DNA from: Brachyspira murdochii
GTDB lineage: Bacteria > Spirochaetota > JAAYUW01
NCBI GenBank assembly: GCA_020722965.1
Contig: DYJT01000003.1
Coordinates: 129,430-165,133 of the forward strand
DNA length: 35,704 nt
Direction of reading: 5' to 3'
Below, in pieces: positions 2,433 through 34,305 of this stretch (the stretch's first letter is position 1; each line of letters starts with the position of its first letter). The notes beneath the pieces were generated by a model, which was not told the origin of the DNA, made no database searches, and saw nothing but the letters and a program-made list of their open reading frames with translations. The position numbers and the translations under genes are program-made.

Positions 2433-2450
2433 ATTTACTCCTATATTTTT

Positions 2451-2810: not shown

Positions 2811-2825
2811 TTTTAGCTCCTTGAT

Positions 2826-4265: not shown

Positions 4266-4267
4266 AA

Positions 4268-16358: not shown

Positions 16359-17594
16359 ATGAAAAGATTAAACTTTATCCTTGTATCCTTTTATGGTTTC
16401 CCTTATACAGCAATTGCAGCATTAAGAGTTTCTCTTTTAGCCAACTTTCTTTCTGAAAAAGGACATAACATATTTTATATAAAAGCAGACAATAGATACT
16501 ACAATGATACAATTGATGACCGATTAAAACTAAATGAAAAAATAATTCAGATACCAATTTTTGTTGGAAATCGTAGAAATTCTGCAAATTTCAGAATTAA
16601 ATTTACCTTAGCAATATCAAAAGAAATTAAGAAAATAATTAAAAACCATAAAATTGATTTTATCTTTTTCTGTTCAGATCCATTTTGGTATCTACCATTA
16701 GGGGCTATATATAAAAAACTATACAAAATTCCTTATGTTATAGACTTTAGAGACATAATGTATAGACATCCTTTGTTTGAGTTAAATAAATACAAAGATA
16801 TTGGTAACAAAATATCTGATAAATTATTAGAAAAACTGTATATCAAACATGCCGCATTAATAATAGATGTAACAGAGGAAAACACTAAATTACATCAAAA
16901 AATCTATAGTAAATATAAGAACAAATTTATCACCATCAAAAATGGATATGATCCTGCTATTATAGAATTAACAGAAAATTTTGATAAAAATTACGAAACA
17001 AAAATAAAAAATGGATCAAAAAGTGATATGAAAAATGAATTAAAAAATGAACTTACAAAAAGAAAATTAAAATTAACAATAGCCGGCAAATTTGCATTTT
17101 ATAATCCCCAAGATATAGATAAAATAATTGAAATAGAAAAAATAGACCCTATTTTAGCTGAAAAATTGGAGGTTATCGCAATAGGAAAAGATAGTAGCAT
17201 TTTTAAGGAAAAGTCAAAAGATGCCAAAATTATATATTTTAACTTTCAACCACAGATACCACAAATTGATCTAATTAAGAAACTAAAAGAATCTGATATT
17301 CTTTTATTGAATAATTTTAGTAAAACAGCTTTAGGCACAAAGGTTTTTGATTATATAGGATTAAATAAACCTGTTTTTGCCTTTGTAAAAAAAGATTATG
17401 CTATCTGGAAATTACTTCAAGATTTTGAAAACTCATTCTTAATAGAAAATTCTGAGGATTTAATAAAATCGATATACAAAATTATAGATAAGAATATCAG
17501 ATTTTTAACTGAAAATAATGAAAAAATTACTCAATATTCAAGAAATTTCCAATTTGAAAAACTTAAAGAAATTTTGATAAAAACTTTTTCTTAA
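16359..17594 (+). CDS. Glycosyltransferase, GT-B fold (GT4-like)
   Basis: 411-residue protein with the two-Rossmann-domain layout of GT-B enzymes. The N-terminal half starts 'MKRLNFILVSFYGFPYTAIA' with a following helix (acceptor side, like other GT4-like proteins of this locus). The C-terminal half has 'GKFAFYNPQDIDK', 'IPQIDLIKKLKESDILLL' and 'GTKVFDYIGLNKPVFAF', the usual sugar-nucleotide binding region. Residues about 215-240 form a Lys/Asn-rich low-complexity linker between domains. Donor and acceptor are unknown; context suggests assembly of the cell-surface glycan. No good ribosome site precedes the ATG, which is unusual here. It is on the opposite strand to most of the locus, with an ABC exporter 213 bases downstream. 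Confidence 0.75.
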   Translation: MKRLNFILVSFYGFPYTAIAALRVSLLANFLSEKGHNIFYIKADNRYYNDTIDDRLKLNEKIIQIPIFVGNRRNSANFRIKFTLAISKEIKKIIKNHKIDFIFFCSDPFWYLPLGAIYKKLYKIPYVIDFRDIMYRHPLFELNKYKDIGNKISDKLLEKLYIKHAALIIDVTEENTKLHQKIYSKYKNKFITIKNGYDPAIIELTENFDKNYETKIKNGSKSDMKNELKNELTKRKLKLTIAGKFAFYNPQDIDKIIEIEKIDPILAEKLEVIAIGKDSSIFKEKSKDAKIIYFNFQPQIPQIDLIKKLKESDILLLNNFSKTALGTKVFDYIGLNKPVFAFVKKDYAIWKLLQDFENSFLIENSEDLIKSIYKIIDKNIRFLTENNEKITQYSRNFQFEKLKEILIKTFS

Positions 17595-17807: not shown

Positions 17808-19697
17808 ATGAATATTTTAAAAAAAATAATTTCAACGATGTGGAAAGAAAACAAGGCAGTCTTTCTGATAAGCGTAATTTTTACGATACTATCGGCGATT
17901 TTCACGATGATGCAAGCAGAAATCGGTCAGGCATTATTCTCTGCAATAAATTCAACTTCTTCGAAAGAAGCTGAACTTGAAAAAACAAATATAATCGAAA
18001 CCGATATAAAAGACGAAAATCAAAAGAATCCATTCATAATACTTTTTAATAACCTTGATAAAATTAAAAACACGAAGGAATTTCTGACTTTTATATTCAT
18101 GCAAAAATCAATAGTTTTAATTATCTTTATAGCAATATTATTTATATTGTTTTATCTATTGCTTAAATTTTTTCTATATATGCAGGGCTATTTGCAGTCG
18201 TTGCTCGCTTTTAAAGCAAGTATTAATATGCAAAAACAGATGTTCGAAAAACTTTTAGCTCTTCCATCACTTTTTTTTAAACAGAAGGCAAAGTCTGGAG
18301 ATTTAATTACAAGAATAATAAGTGACATAAATAACATTAGAATTGCCTCTATGAACATATTCAACACACTTTTTTTTATCCCAATATTGGTGATATTTAG
18401 TGTTATAATGCTTTTTATTAAAAACCATCTTTTTACAACAATCTTAATGATATCCGGTATATTTGGAATAATTATTATAAATATGATTGCAAAACTTGTA
18501 AAACATCAAGTGATACAATCAAGTAAAAAACTTGCTGGAACCGCTAATTATATAAACCAAACGATCTATGGAATAGATGCCATAAAGGTGTTTAATACCG
18601 AAGAATATGAAAAAAGACAATTTTCAGGATTATTAAATCAATATTTTAAATCATATAAAAAACTTTTAAGACTTTCACTACTTGAAAAACCAATCACTGA
18701 AATTTTTGGGGTATTTATTTTACTTCTTATTTTAGGTTCAGGAGCATTACTTTTCTGGAAAGGGAAGTTAACCATAGATCAAATAATAGGTTTTCTTCTA
18801 TATCTAATAGTTTTAGCTCCAAATATTCAGAATATTTCAAGAATTTTATTTCAGTTAAATAATGCTGAAGGTGCAAATGAAAGACTTGAAGAAATTCTTG
18901 AAATGGAAGATGAATCAAAAAACTTTGGGAATAATAAATTAGATAATTTTTCAGGTAATATTGAATTTAAAAATGTTTATTTTTCATATTCAAAAAAAGA
19001 TAATGATAAAGAGCTTATGCATGCTCTATATGATATTTCAATATCCATAAATCAAGGGGAATTCATAGCCATTGTTGGACCGAGTGGCGCCGGAAAAAGT
19101 ACCTTTATAAACTTAATACCAGGTTTATTGCATCCGTTAAAAGGATCAATTTATTTTGATAATATCGATTATAGAGAATTAAAACTAAGTGAGATCAGGA
19201 AGTATATAGCATTAGTTCCTCAAGATGTAGTTCTATTCCCTGATACTTTATATAAAAATATTTTGCTAGGAAATTTAACTGCAAAAGAAGAAGAGGTCTA
19301 CTATTATAGCAAACTGGCTAATGCCGATTCTTTTATAAAAGATTTGCCTGATGGATATAATACTATTTTAGGCGAAAGAGGCTTAACGATATCCGGTGGG
19401 CAAAAGCAAAGAATAGCCATAGCAAGAGCCTTACTAAAAAACCCAAAAATTCTTATCTTTGATGAAGCAACATCTAGTTTGGATTCTGAATCAGAAGGGG
19501 CTATTCAAAATGCTATGGAAAATATAATGCATAGACAAACTTTGATTGTGATCGCGCATAGACTTTCAACTGTATTAAAAGCAGATAAAATTGTTGTTCT
19601 AGATAAAGGGAAAATTGTTGAGGTAGGAAAGCATACTGAATTACTTGAGAAAAATGGACTTTATAAAAACTTATATAATTCCCAATTTAAGAGTTAA
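17808..19697 (+). CDS. ABC-type exporter with fused membrane and ATPase domains; possible lipid-linked glycan flippase
   Basis: 629-residue half-transporter of the MsbA/PglK type. The N-terminal part has about six membrane helices (first near 18-38, second near 100-125); the C-terminal part is the ATPase with Walker A 'GPSGAGKST' (about 424-432), Q-loop 'LVPQDVVLFPDTL', signature 'TISGGQKQRIA' (about 527), Walker B 'ILIFDEATSSLD' and H-loop 'AHRLST'. All catalytic residues are present. It would work as a homodimer. The loop between helices 1 and 2 is long and charged (about 45-95). No Wzx flippase gene is seen in the window, so a role in moving a lipid-linked oligosaccharide is plausible, but lipid or drug export is equally compatible with sequence alone. 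AGAGGA precedes the ATG. Confidence 0.85.
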   Translation: MNILKKIISTMWKENKAVFLISVIFTILSAIFTMMQAEIGQALFSAINSTSSKEAELEKTNIIETDIKDENQKNPFIILFNNLDKIKNTKEFLTFIFMQKSIVLIIFIAILFILFYLLLKFFLYMQGYLQSLLAFKASINMQKQMFEKLLALPSLFFKQKAKSGDLITRIISDINNIRIASMNIFNTLFFIPILVIFSVIMLFIKNHLFTTILMISGIFGIIIINMIAKLVKHQVIQSSKKLAGTANYINQTIYGIDAIKVFNTEEYEKRQFSGLLNQYFKSYKKLLRLSLLEKPITEIFGVFILLLILGSGALLFWKGKLTIDQIIGFLLYLIVLAPNIQNISRILFQLNNAEGANERLEEILEMEDESKNFGNNKLDNFSGNIEFKNVYFSYSKKDNDKELMHALYDISISINQGEFIAIVGPSGAGKSTFINLIPGLLHPLKGSIYFDNIDYRELKLSEIRKYIALVPQDVVLFPDTLYKNILLGNLTAKEEEVYYYSKLANADSFIKDLPDGYNTILGERGLTISGGQKQRIAIARALLKNPKILIFDEATSSLDSESEGAIQNAMENIMHRQTLIVIAHRLSTVLKADKIVVLDKGKIVEVGKHTELLEKNGLYKNLYNSQFKS

Positions 19698-19703
19698 TAG
19701 AAT

Positions 19704-21167
19704 TCAAATATTAATTATTTCATCTACTATCTTTTTAATTTTATCTTCATTATTATCTTCAAAGAATATTTCTGAATTGTTTTTTGAAAATTGTAGTTTT
19801 CCAATGATATTTACAAACTCTTCAGGACTATCAACACAATAAGTATTTACATTTAACTTAATAAGGTCATTTAAATGAATTTTAGATAAATTATCAATAT
19901 TTAATAGTAAATTAGGCTTTTCTAAGGCAATAGCTTCAAAAGCACAGGTAGAATATACGGTAGAATGTATATCTGAAAATTTCATTACTTTATAAGCATC
20001 CAATTTTGAGGATATGCTTTGCATCAATATTAAAGATTCTGGAAGATCAAAAGAGGAATAATCCTTATTTAAATATCTTGGAATATAAATTATCAAAATC
20101 TGATCGCTAATAGAAAGAACCTTTTTTAAAAAATCGATTGACTTCGCTTCTACTGTCCATTGAGAAGTAAAAGCCACAATATATTTATATTTTTTTTTGA
20201 ATTTATCTATCTGGATTTTTATGGATTCACCCAGAACATATTCATTTTTTATATAATTTAAATAATAACTTCCAATAGGTATAATCCTTTTTTTATCTAT
20301 AAAATTTCCATTATCTATTTTTGAAGAAAAATAATTCCCAAAAGACAAGAAATAATCAGGAAAAAAAGAATCATCCATTTTTATTTCAATATTATAAGCC
20401 AAATGATTTTCATTAATAATCCCATGCTGAAATTCTATCGTTTTAATTCCATTAATTTTAGCCGTATAAATTGCTGCATAATTTAAATCTATATAATAAC
20501 AACTTAAAAGAATTGCCCTGGGTTTCCAAATTTTATAAAAAATTTTTAAAGTGTATATCAATTTTAATATATGAGAAATATGAGATCTATAATTAGTTTT
20601 AAAACCAAAATTATTTTGTATTTCTTTGAATAAAGATTCATTTTCAATTTTTAAATTTTTTTGTCTAATCTTTTTATTAAAAAAAAGGATCAAATCCCCA
20701 AAACTTTTAAAAAATTGTGAAGATACGGTATTTTTATATTTTAATTCACTTCTTTTATAATGAAAAGTTTTTAATGGAGTTTCAATAATAAGCACATTTT
20801 CCGAATCAACATTATTTATAAATGGTTCAAAAAGCTTATTTATCTGTCTGTCATCGATTAAACGATTTTCAAGAGTTGATGTAAAAATTACATATTTATA
20901 TTTACGAAATAAATAGTTAAAACCATATAAGATATTTACAAACCTTTTTAAATTATTCAAAATGTAATTTAAAAAAGTCTTAATCTTTTTTTCCTTAATT
21001 TTAATTACATTTTTCTTTTTATTTCTGAATGAATCGTAATCGATAGAATATTTCAACCTGATCGCTGGCCAGATAGAAATATTTGAAGTTTTAATTATGG
21101 ATGGATCTATTTTATTGCTATAAAGATAATTTTCAATTAAATATAATAAATTAGAATTCTTTTCCAT
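19704..21167 (-). CDS. Putative glycosyltransferase with QHG motif, candidate legionaminic acid transferase
   Basis: 487 residues; I do not recognise a specific family. It is soluble overall, very rich in Lys, Ile and Asn. The central segment 'TAKINGIKTIEFQHGIINE' (about residues 240-258) followed by 'PDYFLSFGNYFSSKI' resembles capsule, CDP-glycerol and Kdo-type transferases, in which a Q-H-G turn starts the second Rossmann domain. The C-terminal part has 'FSDIHSTVYSTCAFEAIALE', similar to the donor-binding segment of sialyl- and Kdo-type enzymes. It overlaps legF by 17 bases and is the last gene of the legionaminic acid set, so transfer of legionaminic acid from CMP is the natural guess (inference only). 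Its stop is six bases from the convergent exporter stop. Confidence 0.6.
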   Translation of the reverse strand: MEKNSNLLYLIENYLYSNKIDPSIIKTSNISIWPAIRLKYSIDYDSFRNKKKNVIKIKEKKIKTFLNYILNNLKRFVNILYGFNYLFRKYKYVIFTSTLENRLIDDRQINKLFEPFINNVDSENVLIIETPLKTFHYKRSELKYKNTVSSQFFKSFGDLILFFNKKIRQKNLKIENESLFKEIQNNFGFKTNYRSHISHILKLIYTLKIFYKIWKPRAILLSCYYIDLNYAAIYTAKINGIKTIEFQHGIINENHLAYNIEIKMDDSFFPDYFLSFGNYFSSKIDNGNFIDKKRIIPIGSYYLNYIKNEYVLGESIKIQIDKFKKKYKYIVAFTSQWTVEAKSIDFLKKVLSISDQILIIYIPRYLNKDYSSFDLPESLILMQSISSKLDAYKVMKFSDIHSTVYSTCAFEAIALEKPNLLLNIDNLSKIHLNDLIKLNVNTYCVDSPEEFVNIIGKLQFSKNNSEIFFEDNNEDKIKKIVDEIINI

Positions 21168-21858
21168 TTTTTATCTTATCATATATAAACTCTGCAAAAT
21201 AAAAATCGAACTGATCGTCTATATCTACCGATGAATATTTATCCATGACAAAAGCATAAATATTACTTGATAGAAAAAATGTTTTTACTTCAATGAAGCT
21301 ACTTGTTTTGCATATATAGATTGCACCATTTAATCTATAATATTTTGGAAGATCCTGGCTTCTTTTATTTTTTATATCTGGATTTAAAAAATTTATTAAA
21401 CTTAAATCTTCTGGTAAGATATTACTCCATAATGGGTTATGTTCATTTTCACAAACAGATATCACGGCATCAGCATTTTTATTATTTAAATATTCAATAG
21501 CACCATCAATATGAATATTATCTCTTAATGGAGAGGTGGGCTGAAGAAGGATTATATAATCGGGTAATGAAGGAATTTTAAATAACAAATCCAAAACGAC
21601 ATCTGTTGTTTTTGCCCTATCGGTAGCCAATTCTTCTGGCCTGATTAAATATTCAATATTTTCATTTTTTGCTATATTTATTATTTTAGGATCATCTGTT
21701 GTAACTATGATATTATCGATAAACCTGGATTTTTTTGCGTATTCGATAGTCCAGAGAATAAGAGGTTTACCATGGAAAATTTTGCAATTTTTATTTGGTA
21801 ATCTCTTGCTATTTTTTCTGGCAGGTATGATAGCCAGTATTGTTTTATTGTTTATCAA
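21151..21858 (-). CDS. legF: CMP-legionaminic acid synthetase (acylneuraminate cytidylyltransferase family)
   Basis: Joins CTP and a nonulosonic acid to give the CMP-sugar donor, the last activation step. The 235 residues have the family's N-terminal nucleotide-binding signature 'IPARKNSKRLPNKN' (11-24), then 'ITTDD'-like 'IVTTDDPKI', 'LATDRAKTTDVV' and 'ILLQPTSPLR'. The neighbours make legionaminic rather than neuraminic acid the probable substrate. The start is TTG, sharing a four-base TTGA overlap with the ptmE stop; an AGAGG site at suitable distance inside ptmE supports this start, and no close ATG exists. The 3' end overlaps the next gene by 17 bases. Confidence 0.88.
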   Translation of the reverse strand: MINNKTILAIIPARKNSKRLPNKNCKIFHGKPLILWTIEYAKKSRFIDNIIVTTDDPKIINIAKNENIEYLIRPEELATDRAKTTDVVLDLLFKIPSLPDYIILLQPTSPLRDNIHIDGAIEYLNNKNADAVISVCENEHNPLWSNILPEDLSLINFLNPDIKNKRSQDLPKYYRLNGAIYICKTSSFIEVKTFFLSSNIYAFVMDKYSSVDIDDQFDFYFAEFIYDKIKNGKEF

Positions 21859-22916
21859 ATTTTAAACCTCTCTATGACTTTTTTATATTCATCCCATTGT
21901 CCAATATCCCTCCACGAATTCTGACTAATAGGGTAAACACCTACTTTAAATCCACTACTTTTTGCTTTTGAAAGCAAATTAGTTGCGTGAAAAAATTTCT
22001 TAGATGGAATTAACTTTAAAATTTCCCTGTTAATTATATATATTCCTGTACTTATAAGGAAATTATATTCTGGTTTCTCAACTATATTTTCTAAGACTCC
22101 ATCCTCTTTAATTTCACAAATTCCATAAGGAATTTTATATGATTGCAGTGAAGCAATTAGGGTAATATCGTTCTTCTTGTTTTTATGAAAGTTTAGTATA
22201 TCATAAAAATCGGCATCTATTATAATGTCACAATTTGTTAGAACTAAGCAATCTGATTTTATTTTATTTTTAATAAGATACAAACTTCCTGCGGTACCTA
22301 AAGGCTCTTGTTCTTCAATAAAATTTAATTTATCATATGGTAAATCTAAAAGGTAGGATTTTATAATTGAAGATTTATAGTTCAATGAGATCCAAAAGTC
22401 TGACACCCCATATTGCTTAAAATTATCTATTACGATTTCTATTATTGTCTTATCTCCGATAGGTATTAATGGTTTAGGTAAGATTTTTGTAAAAGGTTCA
22501 AGCCTTGTCCCAAACCCCCCTGCCATTATAACTACTGGAATATTAATTTTCTCAATTGGATTAATCGATATTTGATTATTCTGAGATTCATTGATAAGTA
22601 TTTCTATTATTTTTTTCCCCTCATTCAAAACTGGTATATATTTTAAGTCTTTGCTTATCATATTATTTTTTATTTTCTCTTTATCAAAACCAGAAAAAAC
22701 AAAATATGGATTTTTATTGCATGCTTGCTCAACAAAGCCATCTAATTTACCAAATTTTAATATGTATCTTCTAATATCTCCATCCGTTAAAGAACCAATT
22801 AAACTTTTATTCTCATCGACGACAAATAATATCCTTTTCGCCGTCTTATCTAATTGTTTCATCGCCTCAATTATTGTTTTTCCTTTATCGATAAGTATAT
22901 CATTAAGAATATTCAT
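21855..22916 (-). CDS. ptmE: CBS-domain nucleotidyltransferase, PtmE-like glucosamine-1-phosphate guanylyltransferase
   Basis: Two N-terminal CBS motifs (about the first 115 residues, 'LIGSLTDGDIRRYIL') precede a sugar-1-phosphate nucleotidyltransferase domain beginning 'VVIMAGGFGTRLEPFTKILP' (G-G-F-G-T-R-L triphosphate loop, then PKPLIPIG). In Campylobacter the enzyme of this layout, PtmE, makes the GDP-activated glucosamine that feeds the GDP-based legionaminic acid route, so it fits the surrounding leg genes. I choose the ATG at 22916 because AAGAGGAAAAG lies just upstream and the protein then starts 'MNILNDILIDKGKT' as relatives do; a longer frame from 22952 adds 12 residues and would overlap legG by 50 bases. 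With the chosen start the overlap is 14 bases. Confidence 0.82.
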   Translation of the reverse strand: MNILNDILIDKGKTIIEAMKQLDKTAKRILFVVDENKSLIGSLTDGDIRRYILKFGKLDGFVEQACNKNPYFVFSGFDKEKIKNNMISKDLKYIPVLNEGKKIIEILINESQNNQISINPIEKINIPVVIMAGGFGTRLEPFTKILPKPLIPIGDKTIIEIVIDNFKQYGVSDFWISLNYKSSIIKSYLLDLPYDKLNFIEEQEPLGTAGSLYLIKNKIKSDCLVLTNCDIIIDADFYDILNFHKNKKNDITLIASLQSYKIPYGICEIKEDGVLENIVEKPEYNFLISTGIYIINREILKLIPSKKFFHATNLLSKAKSSGFKVGVYPISQNSWRDIGQWDEYKKVIERFKI

Positions 22917-24084
22917 CTTTTCCTCTTGAAAAAAAGAATTTTTTAGCTTCATAAGTATTTGGAATAGATTTTATTTTTTCAATTATCTTTTCAGATGCTT
23001 TTCCATCGCCATAGATATTCTTACAATGTTTAATCTTATCTTTAAACTCAGCTGAAATTGATTTAACTATAGCCCTTTTTATATCGACCTCATCAGCCTT
23101 GCAATCGATAATAGTTTCTCCCTTTAACCTTCCCTTTTGTCTTAGACCAATATTAACCGTAGGAATAGAAAAACTTGGTGCCTCTATTATTCCACTTGAA
23201 GAATTTCCGATAACCGCATCTACATATTTCATCGTGCTAAAATATAAAAGTTGCCCCATAGAATCAAATAAAACTGTATCTTCCGGAAATTCTTTTGCAA
23301 AATTTTCTATTTTTTGATTTATCAACCTTCCATCTTTATCGGCATTTGATTTTGTGAATATAAATAAGGAATCTTTAATATTTCGTAAGGCATTAAGCAA
23401 TGCATCTATCTGATTTTCTATATTTAAATCATCAGCTGTAGGAGAATTAAAAGTTATAAGAAAATTATATTTTGAAAATTTTTTACCTATTATTTTTTTT
23501 ACTTCTTCTTTTGAATAGAGATTTAATTCTTTAATAGAATCTAAACCCATTGCTCCGACACAAAAAACTTTTTCTGGATCTTCACCCATCTGTATTAAAT
23601 TTTTCCTATATTCTTCTAATGAAGTAAAATGGTAATGACTTAGTTTACTTATGGAATGCCTGATGTTGTCATCAAGAGATCCTTCGGTTATCTCCCCACC
23701 ATGAATGTGGCAAATCCTGACTTTTGAATAATAGCTAGCTATTGCAAAAGCAAATGTTTCAAATCGATCACCCAATAAAACCGTCAAATCTGGTTTTAAT
23801 CTTCTAATAATTTCAGAATAACTTATGAGAGCAAGTCCGATAGATTTAATTGTCCCTACTTCTGTATCTGAGCTTAGCAAGATTTCAGATTTTTCATCAA
23901 TATTGAAACCATCTTTTTCAATTTCCTTGACAGTATAACCAAATTCTAAAGATAAATGAGAACCAGAAACAACGAGTTGAAGTGTTAAATCCCTGTCATC
24001 TTTAATTTTTTTTATTAAAGGACGAAGTAAGCCATATTCAGATCTTGAACCTGTAAAAACACAAATTTTCCTTTTACCATTCAT
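22903..24084 (-). CDS. legG: GDP-sugar 2-epimerase, hydrolysing (LegG/NeuC family)
   Basis: Removes the nucleotide while inverting C2, giving the free 2,4-diacetamido-2,4,6-trideoxymannose used by the synthase. The 393-residue protein has the NeuC-type start 'VFTGSRSEYGLLRPLI', 'LLGDRFETFAFAIASY', 'CHIHGGEITEGSLDDNIRHS' and 'VIGNSSSGIIEAPSF', all hallmarks of the UDP-GlcNAc 2-epimerase superfamily. Neighbouring legB, legC and legH indicate a GDP-diNAc-bacillosamine-like substrate rather than UDP-GlcNAc, so I name it LegG rather than NeuC. The ATG overlaps the legI stop by four bases (ATGA). Confidence 0.87.
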   Translation of the reverse strand: MNGKRKICVFTGSRSEYGLLRPLIKKIKDDRDLTLQLVVSGSHLSLEFGYTVKEIEKDGFNIDEKSEILLSSDTEVGTIKSIGLALISYSEIIRRLKPDLTVLLGDRFETFAFAIASYYSKVRICHIHGGEITEGSLDDNIRHSISKLSHYHFTSLEEYRKNLIQMGEDPEKVFCVGAMGLDSIKELNLYSKEEVKKIIGKKFSKYNFLITFNSPTADDLNIENQIDALLNALRNIKDSLFIFTKSNADKDGRLINQKIENFAKEFPEDTVLFDSMGQLLYFSTMKYVDAVIGNSSSGIIEAPSFSIPTVNIGLRQKGRLKGETIIDCKADEVDIKRAIVKSISAEFKDKIKHCKNIYGDGKASEKIIEKIKSIPNTYEAKKFFFSRGKDEYS

Positions 24085-25097
24085 ATTACAATATTTTCAT
24101 CCTTTTCATAATCTTTTGTCGCTTTTTTTCCAATTAAAAAATCCCATAGAAATGGATCAAGTCCGTTAGCAGGTCTTTTTGTGGTAATATTATCCTCTGT
24201 AAAAATTTCTCCTTTTTTAATATCTTTTGATGCAACAATACTTTTTCTTACTATTTTTTTATTTTTCAACTCAGATATACTCGGTTTTTTTATTCCATCG
24301 CCTAAGGAAAGTTCAATGTTTCTTATAGATTTTACCATTAATGCAAATTCATCTGGATTTAAGGAGGCTTTATGATCTGGTCCATCCAGATTTTTATCGA
24401 GAGTAAAATGTTTTTCAATTACCTTTGCACCAAGAGCAACAGCTGCAATTGGTACCTCTATCCCTTGTGTATGATCCGAATATCCAGTATCAAGATGAAA
24501 TGCATCTTTTAAGGTCTTTATAGCCAAAAGATTGACCTCTTCATATGGAGCTGGATACTCAGAACTACAGTGTAACAAAGTTATATCATTATAATTTGTT
24601 CCATTTTCCACAAATACATTAATCGCATTCTCAATTTCACCTAAAGTAGACATCCCTGTTGACAATAAAATTTTTTTCTTTAATTTTCCAATCTTTTTTA
24701 AATATGGATAGTTTGTAATTTCTCCGCTAGGTATTTTCCATATAGGGATATCCATTTTAGAAAGAAAATCTATACTCATTAAATCAAATGCGCTGGACAG
24801 AAAAACTATCCCTTTATCCAAACAATATCTATTTAATTCTAAGAAATCCTCATAAGATAATTCAAGTTTCTTAAGCATTTGAAATTGATTGTCGATATTT
24901 TTTGTGTTTTTTTCCTGGTATTTTGCTAGAGGTGCTGATTTACTGACTAAAAGTTCGGTTTTAAATGTTTGAAATTTAATGGCATTTGCACCTATCATTG
25001 CTGCTGAATCTATTAACTTTTTAGCGAGATCTAAACTTCCATTATGATTCACACCAGCTTCCGCTATTATAAATGTTTTATCAAAATTCTTATTCAT
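24081..25097 (-). CDS. legI: Legionaminic acid synthase (NeuB/LegI family)
   Basis: Condenses phosphoenolpyruvate with the 6-deoxy-mannosamine derivative from LegG to form the nine-carbon legionaminic acid. The 338 residues show a barrel domain ('IIAEAGVNHNGSLDLAKKLI', 'IKFQTFKTE', 'IPSGEITNYPYLKKIG', 'LSTGMSTLGEIENAI', 'GYSDHTQGIEVPIAAVALGA' and 'IEKHFTLDKNLDGPDHKASL') and a C-terminal SAF antifreeze-like domain (about 275-335, 'IVASKDIKKGEIF'). These are diagnostic of sialic acid-type synthases; separation of LegI from NeuB or PseI rests on the neighbours. It overlaps legH and legG by four bases each, so the whole stretch is probably translationally coupled. Confidence 0.9.
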   Translation of the reverse strand: MNKNFDKTFIIAEAGVNHNGSLDLAKKLIDSAAMIGANAIKFQTFKTELLVSKSAPLAKYQEKNTKNIDNQFQMLKKLELSYEDFLELNRYCLDKGIVFLSSAFDLMSIDFLSKMDIPIWKIPSGEITNYPYLKKIGKLKKKILLSTGMSTLGEIENAINVFVENGTNYNDITLLHCSSEYPAPYEEVNLLAIKTLKDAFHLDTGYSDHTQGIEVPIAAVALGAKVIEKHFTLDKNLDGPDHKASLNPDEFALMVKSIRNIELSLGDGIKKPSISELKNKKIVRKSIVASKDIKKGEIFTEDNITTKRPANGLDPFLWDFLIGKKATKDYEKDENIVI

Positions 25098-25666
25098 TTT
25101 ACGATGCTCCCGGCTTTAATAAAACCTTCAATTACGCTAAGTTGCCTGGAGGTCGCATTGCTTCCGAAAAATGTATCTTTTTTTACTACTACTCCACCAT
25201 TTATAACTGCAGCCGTTGATATATGGCAATTATCTTCAATTATAGCATCATGTTCAATTAAAGCCTTTGAATTAATTATACAATTCTTACCTATCTTAAC
25301 ATTCACATTGATAAGAGCATGATGCATTACAATCGTTCCCTCATCAATACTAGAATACTTTGAAACATACGAAAATGGAGATATAATAACAGGTAGATGA
25401 AAACCTATATTTTTTAAGATTTCAAATAACTTTTTTCTTAAAAGATTAGACTCAATATGTCCAATTGTAATAAAGGCATTTTTATATTCTTTAAAAAGTT
25501 CTGGTAAAGAATCGTCTGAAGCTATTATTTTATAACCTAAAACACTTTGACCTACTTTTTCTTTTATATCAACAATTCCAGCTATTTTATACAATTTCGT
25601 AGACTCTATAACATCTATTACCGATCTGCAATGACCACCGCCACCAATTAAAACAATAGGCTGCAT
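25094..25666 (-). CDS. legH: Sugar N-acetyltransferase, left-handed beta-helix (LegH/PglD/NeuD type)
   Basis: 190 residues: a small N-terminal Rossmann-like part ('PIVLIGGGGHCRSVIDVIES') and a C-terminal left-handed beta-helix of hexapeptide repeats ('VKIGKNCIINSKALIEHDA', 'IIEDNCHISTAAVINGGV'), as in PglD and NeuD. The H-D pair in 'IEHDAIIE' fits the catalytic histidine region of PglD. In this context it should acetylate the 4-amino group made by LegC, using acetyl-CoA; O-acetylation of the finished sugar (a NeuD role) is the alternative. It starts two bases after the legC stop with an AGGA site and overlaps legI by four. Confidence 0.82.
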   Translation of the reverse strand: MQPIVLIGGGGHCRSVIDVIESTKLYKIAGIVDIKEKVGQSVLGYKIIASDDSLPELFKEYKNAFITIGHIESNLLRKKLFEILKNIGFHLPVIISPFSYVSKYSSIDEGTIVMHHALINVNVKIGKNCIINSKALIEHDAIIEDNCHISTAAVINGGVVVKKDTFFGSNATSRQLSVIEGFIKAGSIVK

Positions 25667-25668
25667 GA

Positions 25669-26823
25669 CTAAATCCTAACACTGCTGGGAATATTAACTA
25701 TAACATCTTCTAAGTGTGTTGCGACAGGAATATCTTCGCAGTGGAAATTCTTATAAGGTGGCAATGTTGGTATTAATTTCCAGACCGGTCTTGTTTGAAC
25801 ACCATTATTATTGCTATACTCTAAAAATTGATCTCTTTCTTTTCTATCTTTTAACATTATGACATTTAACCAATAATTTGATTTACAATCCTTTGGCTCA
25901 TTAAAAAATCTAATATTTATGCTTTCAAAAAATCCTTTGTAGATATTAGCTGTTTCTCTTTTATTTTCTATAATCTTATCAAAATATTCCATTTGAGCAC
26001 AGCCAAGAGCAGCATTCACATTTGGCATTCTTAAATTATATCCAACCATATCATGATAAAATTCCCATGGATGTTTAATTTTTGCCGTAGTGCTTAGATG
26101 TCTTGCTTTTTCTATAAGAGTCTCATCATCTGAAATAATCATCCCTCCTCCACCTGTTGTTACTGGTTTATTACCATTAAAAGACAAAATGGAAGCTTTA
26201 CCAAATGTGCCAGTATGTTTTCCTTTATAATAACTACCAAGAGATTCTGCTGCATCTTCGATTAAAGGAATATTATAACTTTCACAAATGCTTTTAATCT
26301 GATCAACTTTGGAAGGATGACCAAAAGTATGCATTGGCATAACAGCAGCAATTCTCTTTCCAGACTTACGATTAACTATATTTTCTCCTTCTTTTTTAGC
26401 ATATTTACTTAAAAACTTATTTAATGAATCAGCTGACATACCAAGAGTTTCTTCATCTACATCTATAAAAACAGGTTCAGCCATTGCATGTCTAATACCT
26501 GCTGCGGTTGCAGCAAAAGTTAAGGCTTGAGTTATAATTTCTTCTCCAGGTTTAATACCAAGAGCTAATAACAGCATTTGAAGTGCTGCTGTTCCATTGA
26601 CAATTGCTGCTGCAAATTTTGCACCAGTTGTTTTTTTTATATGTTCTTCAAAATCAATTACATATTGCCCGACATAAGAGACAAAAGTCGTCTCTACACA
26701 ATTCGAAAGGTATTCTTTTTCTTTACCTAAAAATCTTGGGGCATGTAGGGGAACAGGATTGTCTTTTGGATATAATTTTTTTATGAATTGAATAATATCT
26801 TCAAAAGTTTTGTTATCGTTCAT
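25669..26823 (-). CDS. legC: PLP-dependent sugar aminotransferase LegC
   Basis: DegT/DnrJ/EryC1-family aminotransferase that puts the 4-amino group on the 4-keto sugar made by LegB. The 384 residues include 'PLHAPRFLGKEKEYLSNCVE' near the N-terminus and 'TTFVSYVGQYVIDFE', which are characteristic of the LegC subgroup; 'EDAAESLGSYYKGKHTGTFG' provides the PLP-binding aspartate region and 'LSFNGNKPVTTGGGG' carries the PLP lysine (about residue 221). Full-length and apparently intact, unlike the second DegT-family gene at 33836-34288. AAGGGG precedes the ATG. A 91-base gap to legB contains a direct repeat and may hold an internal promoter. Confidence 0.9.
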   Translation of the reverse strand: MNDNKTFEDIIQFIKKLYPKDNPVPLHAPRFLGKEKEYLSNCVETTFVSYVGQYVIDFEEHIKKTTGAKFAAAIVNGTAALQMLLLALGIKPGEEIITQALTFAATAAGIRHAMAEPVFIDVDEETLGMSADSLNKFLSKYAKKEGENIVNRKSGKRIAAVMPMHTFGHPSKVDQIKSICESYNIPLIEDAAESLGSYYKGKHTGTFGKASILSFNGNKPVTTGGGGMIISDDETLIEKARHLSTTAKIKHPWEFYHDMVGYNLRMPNVNAALGCAQMEYFDKIIENKRETANIYKGFFESINIRFFNEPKDCKSNYWLNVIMLKDRKERDQFLEYSNNNGVQTRPVWKLIPTLPPYKNFHCEDIPVATHLEDVIVNIPSSVRI

Positions 26824-26914: not shown

Positions 26915-27913
26915 TTAAGTATTATAAATATCGGATTTATAGGTTTTATAGTTTTCTGGTTTATTAAACCAATCTATTGTCTGCTCGAGTCCCTGTTTTA
27001 AATTATATTTTGGTTTCCAATCTGTTAATCTCATAATTTTTTCATTAGAACCCAATAGCCTCTCGACTTCACTTTTTTCAGGTCTTATGCGAATATCATC
27101 GCTAATAATTTTAGCTTCTGGGTTGATAATATCTATAATCTCTTTAGCAAGTTGTCCAATTGAAATTTCTTTTCCTGTAGCTATATTTATCTCTTCTCCT
27201 ATCGTATTATCGCTTTTGGCAATTTCTATAAATCCAGAAACTGTGTCTTTAACAAAATTAAAATCACGGGTTGGATGCAGGCTACCTAATTTTATTTCTT
27301 TGACACCATTTAATAATTGAGTAATAATTGTTGGAATAACTGCTCTTGCTGATTGTCTAGGACCATAGGTATTGAAGGGTCTTACAATCGTAACAGGTAA
27401 ATTATAGCTTCGGTAAAAAGATTCAGCAACTTTGTCTGCTCCGATTTTCGATGCACTATAAGGAGATTGACCTTGTAAAGGATGTGATTCATCTATTGGA
27501 ACATATTTAGCGGTTCCATATACTTCAGAAGTAGATGTTACCAATATTTTTTTTACATTATTTATTCTTGCTGCTTGAAGCAAATTTAAAGTGCCTTTTA
27601 CATTTGTTTCAAAAAAACTTTCTGGAGACTTATAGCTAAAAGGAATTGCTATCAATGCTGCCAGATGAAAAATTATATCTATATCCTTTGTAGCATCTAC
27701 TAAAAGATAGGGATCTCTTATATCTCCTGGAAAAACTTCTATTTTTGAAATTATCTCTTTGTCTAATGTATCTAACCAACCCCAGCTGTTAAAAGAATTA
27801 TAAAACACAAAAGCTCTAACTATCGAACCCTCTTTAACTAACTCTTCGGTAAGATGGCTTCCAATAAAACCATCTGCACCAGTTACCAAAACCTTTTTAC
27901 CTCTAAGTTCCAT
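26915..27913 (-). CDS. legB: GDP-GlcNAc 4,6-dehydratase LegB (SDR family)
   Basis: Extended short-chain dehydrogenase that makes the 4-keto-6-deoxy sugar at the start of the legionaminic acid route. The 332 residues show the NAD-binding 'GADGFIGSHL' (11-20), 'VFYNSFNSWGWLD' (typical of the LegB subgroup), 'TSTSEVYGTAKYVP' and the catalytic Y-x-x-x-K in 'SPYSASKIGAD', followed by 'VRPFNTYGPRQSARAVIPT'. Its place before legC, legH, legI, legG, ptmE and legF makes a GDP-linked substrate likely (inference from the Campylobacter pathway). The ribosome site (AAAGGA) is 12 bases from the ATG, so translation may be weaker than for its neighbours. A perfect palindrome lies 24 bases upstream. Confidence 0.9.
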   Translation of the reverse strand: MELRGKKVLVTGADGFIGSHLTEELVKEGSIVRAFVFYNSFNSWGWLDTLDKEIISKIEVFPGDIRDPYLLVDATKDIDIIFHLAALIAIPFSYKSPESFFETNVKGTLNLLQAARINNVKKILVTSTSEVYGTAKYVPIDESHPLQGQSPYSASKIGADKVAESFYRSYNLPVTIVRPFNTYGPRQSARAVIPTIITQLLNGVKEIKLGSLHPTRDFNFVKDTVSGFIEIAKSDNTIGEEINIATGKEISIGQLAKEIIDIINPEAKIISDDIRIRPEKSEVERLLGSNEKIMRLTDWKPKYNLKQGLEQTIDWFNKPENYKTYKSDIYNT

Positions 27914-28007: not shown

Positions 28008-28445
28008 TTATTTATTACCTATAAACATTATTTTCTTTTTTGTAAACACAAATAACTTAGCACCTAAATAATTTAATATAAAACCAGCAAGTATTCCAAT
28101 AACCTGGGCTATTACTTTTAATGGGAGTTTGAAAAGTAGTAGAATAAGATTTAAGACTGCAAGGTTTATAGCCAGGCCAAATAAAGATACAGCAACAAAT
28201 TTTATATAAGATAAAAAAGTAATTTTATTATTTTTACTATATTCTTTGAAAGACCAAAAATGATTTATAATGTAATTCTGGGTAACAGCAATTGAAAAAG
28301 AAATTATTGCACCTATGTTTGTAGAAAGATTTAATCTATCACAAAGGATGTAAAAAATAAGAAGATTTGTAATTGTTCCCAAACCACCAGTAATTGAAAA
28401 CCGAATAAAATTTTTGTTTAACAATGATTTTAATCTGATACGCAT
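28008..28445 (-). CDS. GtrA-family membrane protein
   Basis: About 145 residues with four predicted membrane helices (near 13-35, 40-58, 78-100 and 108-130) and positive ends, matching the GtrA/DPMS-like family. In known systems GtrA proteins are thought to help move or present polyprenyl-linked sugars during glycan decoration; the exact role is uncertain. Typical phrases are 'FSITGGLGTITNLLIFYIL', 'QNYIINHFWSFKEY' and 'QVIGILAGFILNYLGAKLF'. I start at the ATG at 28445; a TTG three bases upstream is also possible. No clear ribosome site. It lies between a glycosyltransferase (46 bases) and legB (94 bases), in the same direction. Confidence 0.82.
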   Translation of the reverse strand: MRIRLKSLLNKNFIRFSITGGLGTITNLLIFYILCDRLNLSTNIGAIISFSIAVTQNYIINHFWSFKEYSKNNKITFLSYIKFVAVSLFGLAINLAVLNLILLLFKLPLKVIAQVIGILAGFILNYLGAKLFVFTKKKIMFIGNK

Positions 28446-28494
28446 CAATTTTTTTAATCTTTTTTATTATTTTATTAACATATTTATCATTTAA

Positions 28495-29760
28495 TTAACT
28501 TAACTGCTTATTAAAAATAATCTCAGAAAGTTTCCTTGATAAAATTCTCCTACTATATTTATTTATCTGTTCATCAATAAATTTGAAATTGCTATATAGT
28601 ATACCATTTTTTTTCATATTAATTAAATCTATTAATGTTTTTTTTATTTTTTCGATATCATTAAAATCAATTATTATCCCGCTATCGGTTTCTTTTAAAA
28701 TATCCGAAATCTCCGAATCTATAGGTCCTAAAGCTAATATTGGTTTTTTTAACCTTAAATATTCAAAAAATTTACCTGTTAATATCCTTTTCGCATTGAT
28801 TCCCGAACCCAAAATTAAAAGCAAAACATCATATTTTATCAATTGGGAAAAAAGTAAATTATGTGGTATTCGATTTTTTATATTGACAATATTTTTTAAT
28901 TTATATTTTTTGATCCCTTTTCTTATAAAGTAAGAATTATGACCAATAAAATCAACTTTAATATTTAAATGATTTTCATCAAGTAACAATCTTAGAGATT
29001 TAAAAAGAGAATCAGGCTTTTTTAATCCGTAAATTGAACCAGCATAGGCTATTTGAAATATGGAACTATTATTTTCGTAATCTTTAAAATTTAAATTTTT
29101 ATAATCAGACTCATCAAATCCATTGTAAATAATTTCAATTTTAGTAGATGAAAATGGATAAAATTTAATAAATGATTTTTTCATCTCTTTAGAAATCGAA
29201 ATTATTTTATCTGCAAGGTAAAAAACCTTTTTCTCTAAAGATTTCTCATAAATCTTTCTTAGTGGCATATATTTAATAAAAGGATTAGATGTCCATTCGT
29301 CTCTAAAATCCGCTATCCAAAAAATTTTTGGGAAAATACTTTTCAACCATATCCCTATTAAATGAGAGGAAAATGGTCCTCCAGTGGTAAAGATAGTATC
29401 TATATTTTCCTGTAAAATTAACTCTTTTGATCTTAAAAATGCCTTTTTTGCCCAATAAATAGATGGATCTGGCCAAAAAAAATTTCTGCTTAGAAAGGAT
29501 ATTATTTGATTAATTTTAAGAAACTTAAATCTTGGTATTAAATTGGGCATATAAAAAGCTGGAACTCTAATTATTTTAACATCTTTTGGTATATCATTTA
29601 AAAGGCTAAAATCCTTTGCACCATAAGTTTTTTCTTCACAGGTTAAAATTATAGGATTAACTTTAAATTCCTGTAAATATTTAACAAATTTAACACTCCT
29701 TATTGCCCCAATAATTCCTGTTGGAGGGAAATAGAAGGAGATAAATAAGATTTGTTTCAT
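28495..29760 (-). CDS. Glycosyltransferase, GT-B fold (GT4 family-like)
   Basis: 421 residues. The N-terminus 'ILFISFYFPPTGIIGAIRSV' with 'KFVKYL' is the usual start of GT4-type enzymes, with a glycine-containing acceptor loop. The C-terminal domain begins near 'IYNGFDESDY' and contains 'IAYAGSIYGLKKPDSLFKSL', 'VDFIGHNSYF', 'DVLLLILGSGINAKRILTGK' and 'FFEYLRLKKPILALG', where E-x7-E-like acidic positions bind the donor. No membrane helix, so it is probably a peripheral cytoplasmic enzyme working on an undecaprenyl-linked acceptor. Sugar specificity cannot be read from the sequence. It starts 20 bases after the CapD-like gene. Confidence 0.8.
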   Translation of the reverse strand: MKQILFISFYFPPTGIIGAIRSVKFVKYLQEFKVNPIILTCEEKTYGAKDFSLLNDIPKDVKIIRVPAFYMPNLIPRFKFLKINQIISFLSRNFFWPDPSIYWAKKAFLRSKELILQENIDTIFTTGGPFSSHLIGIWLKSIFPKIFWIADFRDEWTSNPFIKYMPLRKIYEKSLEKKVFYLADKIISISKEMKKSFIKFYPFSSTKIEIIYNGFDESDYKNLNFKDYENNSSIFQIAYAGSIYGLKKPDSLFKSLRLLLDENHLNIKVDFIGHNSYFIRKGIKKYKLKNIVNIKNRIPHNLLFSQLIKYDVLLLILGSGINAKRILTGKFFEYLRLKKPILALGPIDSEISDILKETDSGIIIDFNDIEKIKKTLIDLINMKKNGILYSNFKFIDEQINKYSRRILSRKLSEIIFNKQLS

Positions 29761-29780
29761 AAATTTTAAACTCTTTAATA

Positions 29781-31697
29781 TTAACTTATAAATTTGTTAT
29801 TTTCTATATTACTAATCTTTTGCTCACTTTTTGAGTACTCTATAACAACATCACCAAGCCATTGTCTTATTTCTTTTCTAGAAAGTTTAAATAAATCATC
29901 GGGATCTGTATTTAAGATTATTTTTATTGAATCTTCGGGAATAATTATATTTTCGGGATTTATCTGAAAAATCTTTTTGTTTAAAGTTTTCATCATGGTT
30001 TCATTTGCTAAAAATAATTCTTCATATAATTTTTCTCCTGGCCTTAAACCTGTAAACTCTATCTTTATATCCTTTTGTGGTTCAAGCCCAAAAAACCTAA
30101 CGAGATTATTTGCTATGTCTAAGATTTTGTATTGTTTACCCATGTCAAGAACGAAGATATCTCCACCTCTGGAATAAGCTGCTGCATTAAGCATCAATGT
30201 GGCAGCCTCTGGAATAGTCATAAAATACCTTTTAATCTCAGGATGAGTGATAGTTATTGGACCACCAGATTGAATCTGTTCAATAAAAAGGGGTATTACA
30301 GAACCTCTACTTCCTATGACATTTCCAAATCTAACAATCGAAGTTGAAAGATTGTATTTATTAAAATAATTTAATGTCAAAATTTCAGCCGCCCTTTTAG
30401 TAGCTCCCATAATATTTACTGGATTAACAGCTTTGTCGGTAGAAACTAAAATAAATTTCTTTACCTTATATTTAACAGATAAATCAAGTATATTCTTGGT
30501 TCCATAAATATTATTAGCAATCGCCTCTGCTTCATTATATTCCATCAATGGAACATGTTTATGCGCTGCTGCGTGAAAAACAATATCTGGTTTATAATCC
30601 ATAAATATAGAATCTAGCAGTGGTAAATTTTTTATATTTGCTATTTTGTAGATAATTTTTTTATTTATAACATTTTTTTCACCATATTTTTCTAATTCTT
30701 TAATCAATTTATATATGGAATATTCACCTCTTCCAATAGCTATCAACTGATCTATATCGTATTTTAATAGTTGTTTACATATTTCACTGCCTATGCTTCC
30801 ACCAGCACCTGTTACCAAAATTCTTTGCCCATTAAAAAGTTCTGAAATAGCCTTTATATCTATTGAAATTTCCTCCCTTCCTATAAGATCTTCTACCGAA
30901 ATATCTCTAAGTGAATTAAGTAAAGGGCGATTGGTTGTTAATTCAAAAACCGAAGGTATTATTTTTACGCTTATGTCAGGGTAAACTTTTCTTATGGTAG
31001 AAGAAATTTTACCGATCTGTTCTGATGTTGCAGATGGTATTGCAATATATATTAAGTTGACTACATTATCGTCAATAACCTGCTTTAATCTATTTAATCC
31101 ACCAAATATTTTCTTCCCATTCAAAAGTTTACCTTTTTTCGATTTATCATCATCTAAAAATCCTATAACAGAATCTTCTTCACCTCTTTTTATAATCTCC
31201 GCAATCAGGTTTCTGCCTGCTTCACCTGCACCTATTATTAAAATCTTTTTTAATTCTTTATCCTTAGGTTTTTTAAATTCTCCATTTCTTCTTGAAAAAT
31301 AATCTCTATATATTGCTCTTATGAATATAGTTCCGCTTATAACAAAGAAAAAATTTATTATTGCCATAAGCCTTGAAGTCGATTTATTTAAAGCAAAAAG
31401 ATAGAAAAAATAAAAGATAGCAGCAATAAAATTACTCAAAACTAACCTATAAACATCATTTATATTCGAATATGCCCAGATAATCCTGTAAATTTTCATC
31501 ATAAAAAAAACTAATATATAAAAGAGTAGTTGAACACTTATATCTTTTATTCTGAAATGAGCTGCATTTTTAGTAAGATCAGGATAGAATCTAAGAAAAT
31601 AAGCGACAAGATAAGAACCTACGATTAGAATAATATCAAAAACAAGAAAAAAATTATTACTTATATTAAACTTTTTTTTATTATTTGTTTCAGTCAT
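29781..31697 (-). CDS. Membrane-bound nucleotide-sugar 4,6-dehydratase, CapD/WbpM/PglF type
   Basis: Full-length (638 residues) form of the family. Four N-terminal membrane helices (about 15-130), a first Rossmann part with 'LIIGAGEAGRNLIAEI' (about 153-168), and the catalytic SDR domain with 'VTGAGGSIGSEICKQL' (about 293-308), 'FHAAAHKHVPLMEYN' and 'STDKAVNPVNIMGATKRAAE', where a methionine replaces the usual tyrosine of the SDR Y-x-x-x-K, as in WbpM and PglF. The reaction would be UDP-GlcNAc to UDP-4-keto-6-deoxy-GlcNAc, the source of QuiNAc, FucNAc or bacillosamine. It follows the PglC-like transferase by 12 bases, as often seen, and AGAAGGA precedes its ATG. The final sugar cannot be told because no intact partner aminotransferase or reductase is beside it. 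Confidence 0.9.
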   Translation of the reverse strand: MTETNNKKKFNISNNFFLVFDIILIVGSYLVAYFLRFYPDLTKNAAHFRIKDISVQLLFYILVFFMMKIYRIIWAYSNINDVYRLVLSNFIAAIFYFFYLFALNKSTSRLMAIINFFFVISGTIFIRAIYRDYFSRRNGEFKKPKDKELKKILIIGAGEAGRNLIAEIIKRGEEDSVIGFLDDDKSKKGKLLNGKKIFGGLNRLKQVIDDNVVNLIYIAIPSATSEQIGKISSTIRKVYPDISVKIIPSVFELTTNRPLLNSLRDISVEDLIGREEISIDIKAISELFNGQRILVTGAGGSIGSEICKQLLKYDIDQLIAIGRGEYSIYKLIKELEKYGEKNVINKKIIYKIANIKNLPLLDSIFMDYKPDIVFHAAAHKHVPLMEYNEAEAIANNIYGTKNILDLSVKYKVKKFILVSTDKAVNPVNIMGATKRAAEILTLNYFNKYNLSTSIVRFGNVIGSRGSVIPLFIEQIQSGGPITITHPEIKRYFMTIPEAATLMLNAAAYSRGGDIFVLDMGKQYKILDIANNLVRFFGLEPQKDIKIEFTGLRPGEKLYEELFLANETMMKTLNKKIFQINPENIIIPEDSIKIILNTDPDDLFKLSRKEIRQWLGDVVIEYSKSEQKISNIENNKFIS

Positions 31698-31709
31698 AAA
31701 AATCCTTCT

Positions 31710-32303
31710 CTATTTAAATAGCACGGCATATATAGTTTTCAAAAGAATTGTTAAATCCATAAACATATTATTATTATCCGCATAATCTTTAGCTAAAATT
31801 AACTTTTTAGGCAAAAGTTCATTTATATATAGATCTTCATGGTTTTCCTTGTTTGCCAAAATCTTTTCTTCATATCTATATTGCAAAGAAGCATTATCTG
31901 TAATTCCAGGTTTTACTTTTGATAATATATATTCAAATTCAGGTTTATAAAATCTTGCATATCTTTCTACTTCTGGTCTTGGTCCAACAAGACTCATATC
32001 ACCTTTTAAGACATTGAAAAATTGTGGTAATTCATCGAGTTTTGTCCTTCTTAAAAATCTTCCAACCTTTGTGATTCTTGGATCATGTCCAGCAGTAACT
32101 AAAGCACCTTTTTTATCTGCATCTTTAACCATGGTACGAAATTTATACATTGTAAATTCTTTATAATCTTTCCCAAGCCTTTTCTGAGAGTAAAATATCG
32201 GTAAACCTGAATCAAAAAAAATCGCAAGACTTATGATTATAATTAGTGGAGAGAAAATAATTAAGGCTAAAAAGGAAGCAAAAATATCAATTAATCGTTT
32301 CAT
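31710..32303 (-). CDS. Polyprenyl-phosphate sugar-phosphate transferase, small PglC-like form
   Basis: Initiates glycan assembly by moving a sugar phosphate from its UDP-sugar to undecaprenyl phosphate at the inner membrane face. At 197 residues it is the minimal PglC form, lacking the extra membrane domains of WcaJ/WbaP. One hydrophobic re-entrant helix (about 5-30) is followed by 'FYSQKRLGKDYKEFTMYKF', 'KFRTMVKDAD', 'DELPQFFNVLKGDMSLVGPR' and 'PGITDNASLQYRY'. The acidic pair and the P-R-P motif of the active site are present. Its neighbours suggest a 6-deoxy-amino sugar (CapD product) as the first sugar. The 5' end overlaps the Wzy-like gene by 17 bases. Confidence 0.92.
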   Translation of the reverse strand: MKRLIDIFASFLALIIFSPLIIIISLAIFFDSGLPIFYSQKRLGKDYKEFTMYKFRTMVKDADKKGALVTAGHDPRITKVGRFLRRTKLDELPQFFNVLKGDMSLVGPRPEVERYARFYKPEFEYILSKVKPGITDNASLQYRYEEKILANKENHEDLYINELLPKKLILAKDYADNNNMFMDLTILLKTIYAVLFK

Positions 32304-33807: not shown

Positions 33808-33835
33808 TATAATAACTCATTTTTAAAATATTTTC

Positions 33836-34288
33836 CTATAAATCAAAGCTATAAATATTATCTTTAATAAAATTTTCTATTCTTTTTACATCTTTTTCTT
33901 TAATTTTCTCATGCGTTGGTAGATTGATAATATTTTTGCATATTTTTTCCGCTATGGGACAACTTCCAATTTCATAACCGGAAAATTCAAGATTTTTAGT
34001 TATAGGATGGACCACAGAGACAAACCAATCTCCAATTTCAATCCCCTTTTTAATAGCATTGTTTAATATTTTTTCCTTATTTTTTACCAATAAGGGGTAT
34101 CTTAAATAAACGACATCATAATCTTTGGGAAATTCTCTAACCAAAATCCCTAATTTTTTCAACTCTTTACCATATATACTTGAAATGTATTTTCTGTGTT
34201 CAATAATTTTGTCTATATTATTTAACTTTCTTAAAAGTAGATTTTTCTGAAAATTTGCCATTTTTTTCTCATAATTAACATTTTGCAT
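33836..34288 (-). pseudogene. 5'-truncated DegT/DnrJ/EryC1 aminotransferase remnant
   Basis: The 150-residue frame matches only the C-terminal part of a sugar aminotransferase: 'NFQKNLLLRKLNNIDKIIEH' (the dimer and substrate helix), 'GKELKKLGI', and 'SCPIAEKICKNIINLPTHEK' near the end, ending with 'VKRIENFI'. Complete family members have about 370-400 residues. The missing 5' part would carry the PLP-binding lysine and aspartate, so this piece cannot be an active aminotransferase by itself. Only 17 bases separate it from the upstream glycosyltransferase gene, so the 5' half has been deleted rather than hidden in another frame. The ATG has no good ribosome site. It could have been a perosamine- or bacillosamine-type enzyme using the CapD-like product. 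Confidence 0.8.
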
Positions 34289-34305
34289 TATGTTATCAAT
34301 TTAAA

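Follow-up and report, generated by a model that had tools for sequence, protein, structure and literature searches.

A predicted GT-B protein of an unnamed family at the end of a Brachyspira legionaminic acid operon: a probable transferase of CMP-nonulosonic acid

Bacterial sialyltransferases of families GT38, GT52 and GT80 use CMP-activated nonulosonic acids (NulOs) as donors, and few transferases are known for legionaminic acid (Leg). Information on the latter is very limited according to a 2024 paper (PMC11356810). The Pse and Leg-derivative transferases GtfS and TFUB4_00887 of Tannerella forsythia are described as enzymes of the GT-B type that are encoded in NulO loci, and the corresponding knock-outs are reported to lose the Pse or the Leg derivative (PMC6388019; PMC6120980), so that, on these accounts, a GT-B enzyme of broadly this sort can act as a NulO transferase. 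Both reportedly carry DXD, D/E-D/E-G and HP motifs, the last of which is given as the CMP-Neu5Ac binding motif of polysialyltransferase and PmST1 (PMC2169525). CMP-activated 2-ulosonic acids are, moreover, reported as the donors of the retaining Kdo transferases of families GT99, GT107 and GT140 (PMC12887879). Here we describe a protein, P0001, encoded in a 35,704-nt stretch of Brachyspira murdochii DNA (contig DYJT01000003.1; the window), which comes from a genome of 2.07 Mb. To judge from its sequence and a structural model, P0001 is probably a GT-B transferase of CMP-NulO from an unnamed family, most likely with CMP-legionaminic acid as its donor; with the T. forsythia enzymes it was compared by their published description only.

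The gene stands in the following surroundings:

16359..17594, plus strand: weak GT4-type glycosyltransferase
17808..19697, plus strand: MsbA-like ABC exporter, the convergent next gene
19704..21167, minus strand: P0001 (QHG protein, 487 aa), proposed GT-B CMP-legionaminic acid transferase
21151..21858, minus strand: legF, CMP-legionaminic acid synthetase-like (CTP_transf_3; PseF-like at 6.7e-44, under that model's cut-off)
21855..22952, minus strand: ptmE-like, CBS and nucleotidyltransferase (NTP_transferase) domains
22903..24084, minus strand: legG, NeuC-type 2-epimerase (NeuC/LegG TIGR03568, 6.3e-138)
24081..25097, minus strand: legI, NeuB-type synthase (NeuB/LegI TIGR03569, 1.7e-150)
25094..25666, minus strand: neuD/legD-type acetyltransferase (NeuD TIGR03570, 5.7e-49)
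25669..26823, minus strand: legC aminotransferase (LegC TIGR04181, 7.1e-153)
26915..27913, minus strand: legB 4,6-dehydratase (LegB TIGR04180, 1.6e-151)
28008..28448, minus strand: GtrA-like membrane protein, upstream of legB
28495..35529, minus strand: remaining surface glycan locus (GT4, CapD/PglF-like dehydratase, phosphoglycosyl transferase, Wzy/ligase-like, DegT fragment and a second GT1/GT4-type gene)

The leg operon of the window is complete. P0001 is the final gene of a legB-legC-neuD/legD-legI-legG-ptmE-legF series, each member of which has Pfam or NCBIfam support; its ORF runs from an ATG at 21167 down to 19704, and this start codon sits 17 nt inside legF, which bears out the description in the initial annotation of a 487-residue protein that overlaps legF and closes the leg set. 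It is not a chance ORF, because homologues of similar length occur in many phyla and the fold is predicted with confidence. The window's other glycosyltransferases match models of the GT4/GT1 type or of phosphoglycosyl transferases, families without a known use of CMP-sugars.

Does P0001 belong to a family that already has a name? As a query it had no match in Pfam, NCBIfam, PHROGs or PDB sequences, in keeping with the earlier statement that it could not be placed in one with a name, and no description of a QHG family was found in the open-licence PMC literature; within these libraries and papers, the family appears to be undescribed. Counting the window's own genome, 2 of 60 relatives have a homologue, as do, across the phylum, 6 of 392 genomes by single sequence and 13 of 392 by profile. 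A collection of species genomes, searched with two patterns, one of them containing I-E-x-Q-H, yielded homologues at 47 loci, both bacterial and archaeal, whose records carry the labels Spirochaetes, Thermotoga, Lachnospiraceae and other Firmicutes, Bacteroidetes, Proteobacteria, Planctomycetota, Pacearchaeota, Heimdallarchaeota and Thermoplasmatota, among others. Most of the homologues are 450-510 aa long, and the closest (locus L027) is 43% identical to P0001. The alignment used for the motif counts below, A6, has 41 rows: P0001 plus 40 loci, the other seven of the 47 (L029, L032, L038, L048, L056, L066 and L068) having been left out beforehand.

One homologue is plasmid-borne (Azospirillum, L012 11626-13209, NZ_CP039644.1) and annotated as a 'hypothetical protein'; its neighbours are neuB, acylneuraminate cytidylyltransferase, acetamidino-modification and amidotransferase genes. 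This homologue has two weaker relatives of its own, beyond which searches of phages and further plasmids with relatives as queries gave no match. Fusion to LegF was not seen among the homologues, and the domain fusion suggested by the 709 aa of L038 was discarded because the positions of neighbouring matches point to an over-extended ORF. A single 902-aa ORF in L011 (4139-6847) combines a QHG-type domain with a C-terminal portion resembling a GT4 glycosyltransferase; its start and the fusion need checking, because that genome is rich in long ORFs.

The AlphaFold2 model of P0001, made with A6 (pLDDT 90.2, pTM 0.90), confidently predicts a GT-B fold with two Rossmann-like domains over residues 88-487, and Foldseek and VIA matches to the model support this fold, which had been set beforehand as a check on the transferase reading. 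In the PDB, the best Foldseek match was TagF (1e-10), followed by NeuC and UDP-GlcNAc 2-epimerases; VIA placed UDP-GlcNAc 2-epimerases on top (Z 19), ahead of TarL with CDP-ribitol (16.7) and a polysialyltransferase with CDP (16.1). Could P0001 then be no transferase at all, but an epimerase-like enzyme that helps to make sugar nucleotides? We consider this very improbable: LegG already covers that step, the Epimerase_2 model (PF02350) has no match in P0001, and both its profile relatives and its aligned motifs belong to transferases. Since epimerases are a known branch of the GT-B fold, a match to them says little by itself, and, more generally, the structural neighbours of P0001 are ordinary GT-B relationships that do not on their own tell the substrate. 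A viral structure library likewise returned general GT-B matches only. Kdo-type transferases were not among the VIA matches listed, which proves nothing, and WaaA was among those of Foldseek. Residues 1-87 form a helical N-terminal region outside the fold matches, with a conserved W33..R37 pair (35/41 and 36/41 rows of A6, respectively).

Three motif positions stand out in P0001:

20421..20435, minus strand: Glu-Phe-Gln-His-Gly, codons 245-249 (E245, Q247, H248, G249), candidate catalytic motif, aligned with WHG of TagF
20073..20081, minus strand: Pro-Arg-Tyr, codons 363-365 (P363, R364), where 35 of 41 aligned members have K-x-H-P
19935..19952, minus strand: Ser-Thr-x-x-x-Glu, codons 406-411, candidate nucleotide-binding motif

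The first contains the Q-H-G that had been noticed initially (Q247-H248-G249). E245, Q247, H248 and S406 occur in all 41 rows of A6, T407 in 37 and E411 in 35; the conservation of I-E-x-Q-H in this alignment is partly circular, because one search pattern contains it, and, independently of that pattern, E, Q and H are kept in 7/7 rows of alignment A3 and in L018. K/R-x-HP is found in 35/41 rows (with a pattern that also admits N first and S last) at the place where P0001 has I362-P363. The HP histidine is also missing in L027, L028, L031, L033, L052 and L008, most of these proteins having x-PR instead, and the HP-less members except L052 group together in the tree at 91/90 support, a grouping that is provisional because several branches are long.

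As to named families, the initial annotation had been reminded of capsule, Kdo and sialyl-type transferases and had proposed a fold search against GT52, GT99, CDP-glycerol and Kdo transferase families. The CDP-glycerol transferases, together with the proteins of NF046086 (BFO_1060 family glycosyltransferases, NCBIfam), proved to be the closest testable relatives. Profile comparison of the P0001 family with CDP-glycerol transferases by hhalign (96.4%, E 1.1e-9) lays QHG on WHG, so that H248 aligns with His444 of TagF, and TagF and TarL (PF04464) share with P0001 both the GT-B fold and, in register, the S/T..E/D motif. Structure entry 3l7j, titled H444N, indeed has N in the WHG motif, i.e. at the His444 position, and another TagF mutant is altered at chain index 584, within the motif aligned to K-x-HP (its entry title reads H548A, which we take for a transposition of 584). 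This second active-site His ([K/R]-x-H) corresponds to I362 in P0001, although it is kept in 35/41 members. There is also a strong match to an NF046086-like set, made up of proteins that fall below that model's cut-off (98.3%, E 1.4e-14, 227 columns), where HP falls on HP and ST-E is likewise in register, but where D/E-E-G or a similar string takes the place of QHG. The NF046086 model itself, some of whose matches in carrier genomes lie near NeuB, is matched by 13/41 relatives but not by P0001, and its curated cut-off of 200 bits was passed in 0/47 genomes (35.8 bits for L027, 23.3 for L008). Loci L095-L098 encode NF046086-like GT-B proteins with RPHP, and the ELDEEG of L095 resembles the D/E-D/E-G of sialyltransferases.

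The other comparisons stood up only in part. P0001 has the two-motif layout of GT38, GT52 and GT80, with ~115 residues between the motifs (248 to 363; cf. E153/H278 of NmB-polyST as described in PMC2169525), but QHG stands in register where those families have D/E-D/E-G, and x-PR replaces the HP that 35/41 members do possess. The QxxxD nucleophile motif of the Kdo transferases (GT99/GT107/GT140) is missing as well: there is no such Q...D in P0001, and an Asp at Q247+4 occurs in 1/41 rows. The loss of the HP histidine speaks against the Leg-transferase reading, since this residue, reported as the CMP-sugar binder of polysialyltransferases and PmST1, is gone from the very subclade to which P0001 belongs. 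Among the PR-type loci, the pathway could be classified well in the window, L008 and L033; all three are of the Leg type, which is too small a number for conclusions on donor specificity.

This kinship raises the possibility that P0001 uses another donor, such as CDP-glycerol, CDP-ribitol or a UDP-sugar, and is a glycosyltransferase or polyol-phosphate transferase of a NulO locus in which a different enzyme attaches Leg. The profile homology and the TagF and TarL structural matches speak for this explanation, and SpsB, a TagB-domain protein of the Bacillus subtilis Leg locus, is reported to be dispensable for Leg transfer (PMC7439481). We nevertheless regard it as unlikely. The Glyphos_transf model (PF04464) is unmatched by P0001 up to E 1 and matched by only 2/41 relatives at E<=0.01, no CDP-polyol synthesis gene was recognised among the annotated genes of the window, and P0001 differs from TagF and TarL in genomic setting. 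Its family also stands beside NulO genes much more often than GT4 genes were seen to (among the matches listed).

How close is this company? When the Leg proteins of the window served as tblastn queries (E<=1e-6), a NeuB-type gene was detected within 10 kb at 30 of the 47 loci, a LegF-like gene at 26 and either of them at 33; restricting the count to loci that span 9 kb or more gives 28/37, 22/37 and 29/37, respectively. Most homologues thus sit beside NulO genes, as one would expect of the function proposed initially. NeuB lay within 10 kb of 9/150 GT4 (PF13439) genes among the matches listed from 46 genomes, and Fisher's test against this control gives p 9e-16 with 30/47 and p 6e-18 with 28/37. 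These values are to be read with the difference in detectors in mind: NeuB was detected at the loci by tblastn with LegI, and near the GT4 genes by Pfam's NeuB model. The control's 46 genomes omit those of L039, L048, L056, L059, L063, L064, L066 and L068 and include added spirochaete genomes. At 26/47 loci, a legI- or legF-like gene lies within 3 kb, on the same strand in 24 of the 26. A signature of Leg itself (a LegB of at least 55% or else a PtmE match) is present at 9/47 loci, and the QHG proteins are therefore to be seen as a NulO family rather than a Leg-only one. Both NeuB- and LegF-like genes are absent within 10 kb at 14/47 loci, eight of which are at least 9 kb long (L031, L036, L041, L050, L055, L056, L064 and L068). 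L068 begins at a contig end and contains legB and ptmE; L041, L050 and L064 fall on a long, well separated Bacteroidota branch, which may have another role and whose member L037 does have NulO genes. Co-occurrence with NeuB at the level of whole genomes (46/46 carrier genomes) was rejected as evidence, the background in the phylum being 327/392 genomes (83%).

The fold and the company of NulO genes together support the initial proposal of a legionaminic acid transferase, CMP-Leg as the donor being suggested by the operon. P0001 would be a cytoplasmic enzyme that takes the NulO from its CMP donor, most likely CMP-Leg supplied by the neighbouring LegF, and would add it to the growing surface glycan built by the same locus, presumably the acceptor, with the phosphoglycosyl transferase, the GT4 enzymes, the Wzy/ligase-like protein and the MsbA-like exporter as its partners. 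The catalytic residue would come from the invariant E-x-Q-H-G at a strand end in the N-terminal Rossmann domain, where H248 occupies the place of TagF His444; S406/T407 and E411 may hold the nucleotide, and R364 may replace the missing His of K-x-HP. Given that P0001 lacks the QxxxD nucleophile motif by which the retaining Kdo transferases are marked, its mode of transfer would probably be inverting.

Is CMP-Leg transfer, as originally claimed, the one step otherwise missing? Genome-wide it is not strictly the sole gap, because three MptE/Maf-like proteins are encoded elsewhere (G000:C23:70177-70710, G000:C33:4075-4626 and G000:C17:62287-62874), which makes flagellin a possible second destination for Leg. 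Maf4 of Campylobacter has been described as a putative legionaminyl transferase (PMC9298399), and it is thus conceivable, albeit improbable, even more so than use of another donor, that Maf-like proteins place Leg on flagellin and that P0001 is an accessory of the polysaccharide locus. The leg operon is, however, embedded in that locus and P0001 overlaps legF, whereas the one Maf-like gene with its surroundings read, on the window's own contig, adjoins a SurA/PpiC-like gene and not the leg genes. The MptE-like domain of Maf flagellin glycosyltransferases (PF01973) has no match in P0001. The two routes could also coexist. A second, divergent NeuB (35% to LegI) is encoded at L093 6332-7375 (G000:C38), with FtcD, PTA_PTB and HEAT-repeat proteins among its neighbours and no NulO pathway genes recognised within the surrounding 13 kb.

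The slot after legF is not always filled by the same protein. In G002, of the same genus, the order legC-neuD-legI-legG-ptmE-legF-QHG is followed by a gene of the Bac_transf type (identified by eye), one resembling a dehydratase and a relative of MsbA, and the QHG protein is of the HP type, ~28% identical to P0001 and placed in a distant clade of the tree. G003, of the same order, has a flippase after the leg operon and, four genes on, a 406-aa protein with DIQHGF and RLHP. In G001, again of the same genus, there is a single NeuB match of a weaker kind and no QHG match. An exchange of transferases at a constant operon position fits varying acceptors or linkages.

The enzyme kind is already known; what is new is the family and the variation of its motifs. 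Perhaps the QHG proteins constitute an unnamed, CAZy-level family of CMP-NulO transferases in bacteria and archaea, with members serving Leg, Pse or other NulOs, which joins CDP-polyol transferases and classical sialyltransferases, has a motif built on His where D/E-D/E-G would be expected, and whose P0001 subclade has an Arg for the HP His that would hold the phosphate and the NulO carboxylate; this we put forward tentatively, with slightly more doubt than conviction. Were it true, the motif set E-x-QHG, K-x-HP or x-PR, and ST...E would flag NulO transferase candidates among 'hypothetical protein' genes such as that of Azospirillum, enzymes for the synthesis of Leg glycosides would become available, and intermediate families linking sialyltransferases with teichoic acid polymerases would come to light.

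Two observations concern other parts of the window. Squeezed between the GT1/GT4-type gene and the Wzy/ligase-like gene is a 150-aa DegT/aminotransferase fragment (33836-34288), which covers only profile positions 216-357 of 360 and gives the impression of a truncated remnant. At its opposite end (243-4582), the window holds an ornithine degradation operon with ornithine aminomutase subunits and OrtA/OrtB-like genes, the OrtB identity being one that we take from a PALP match in this region.
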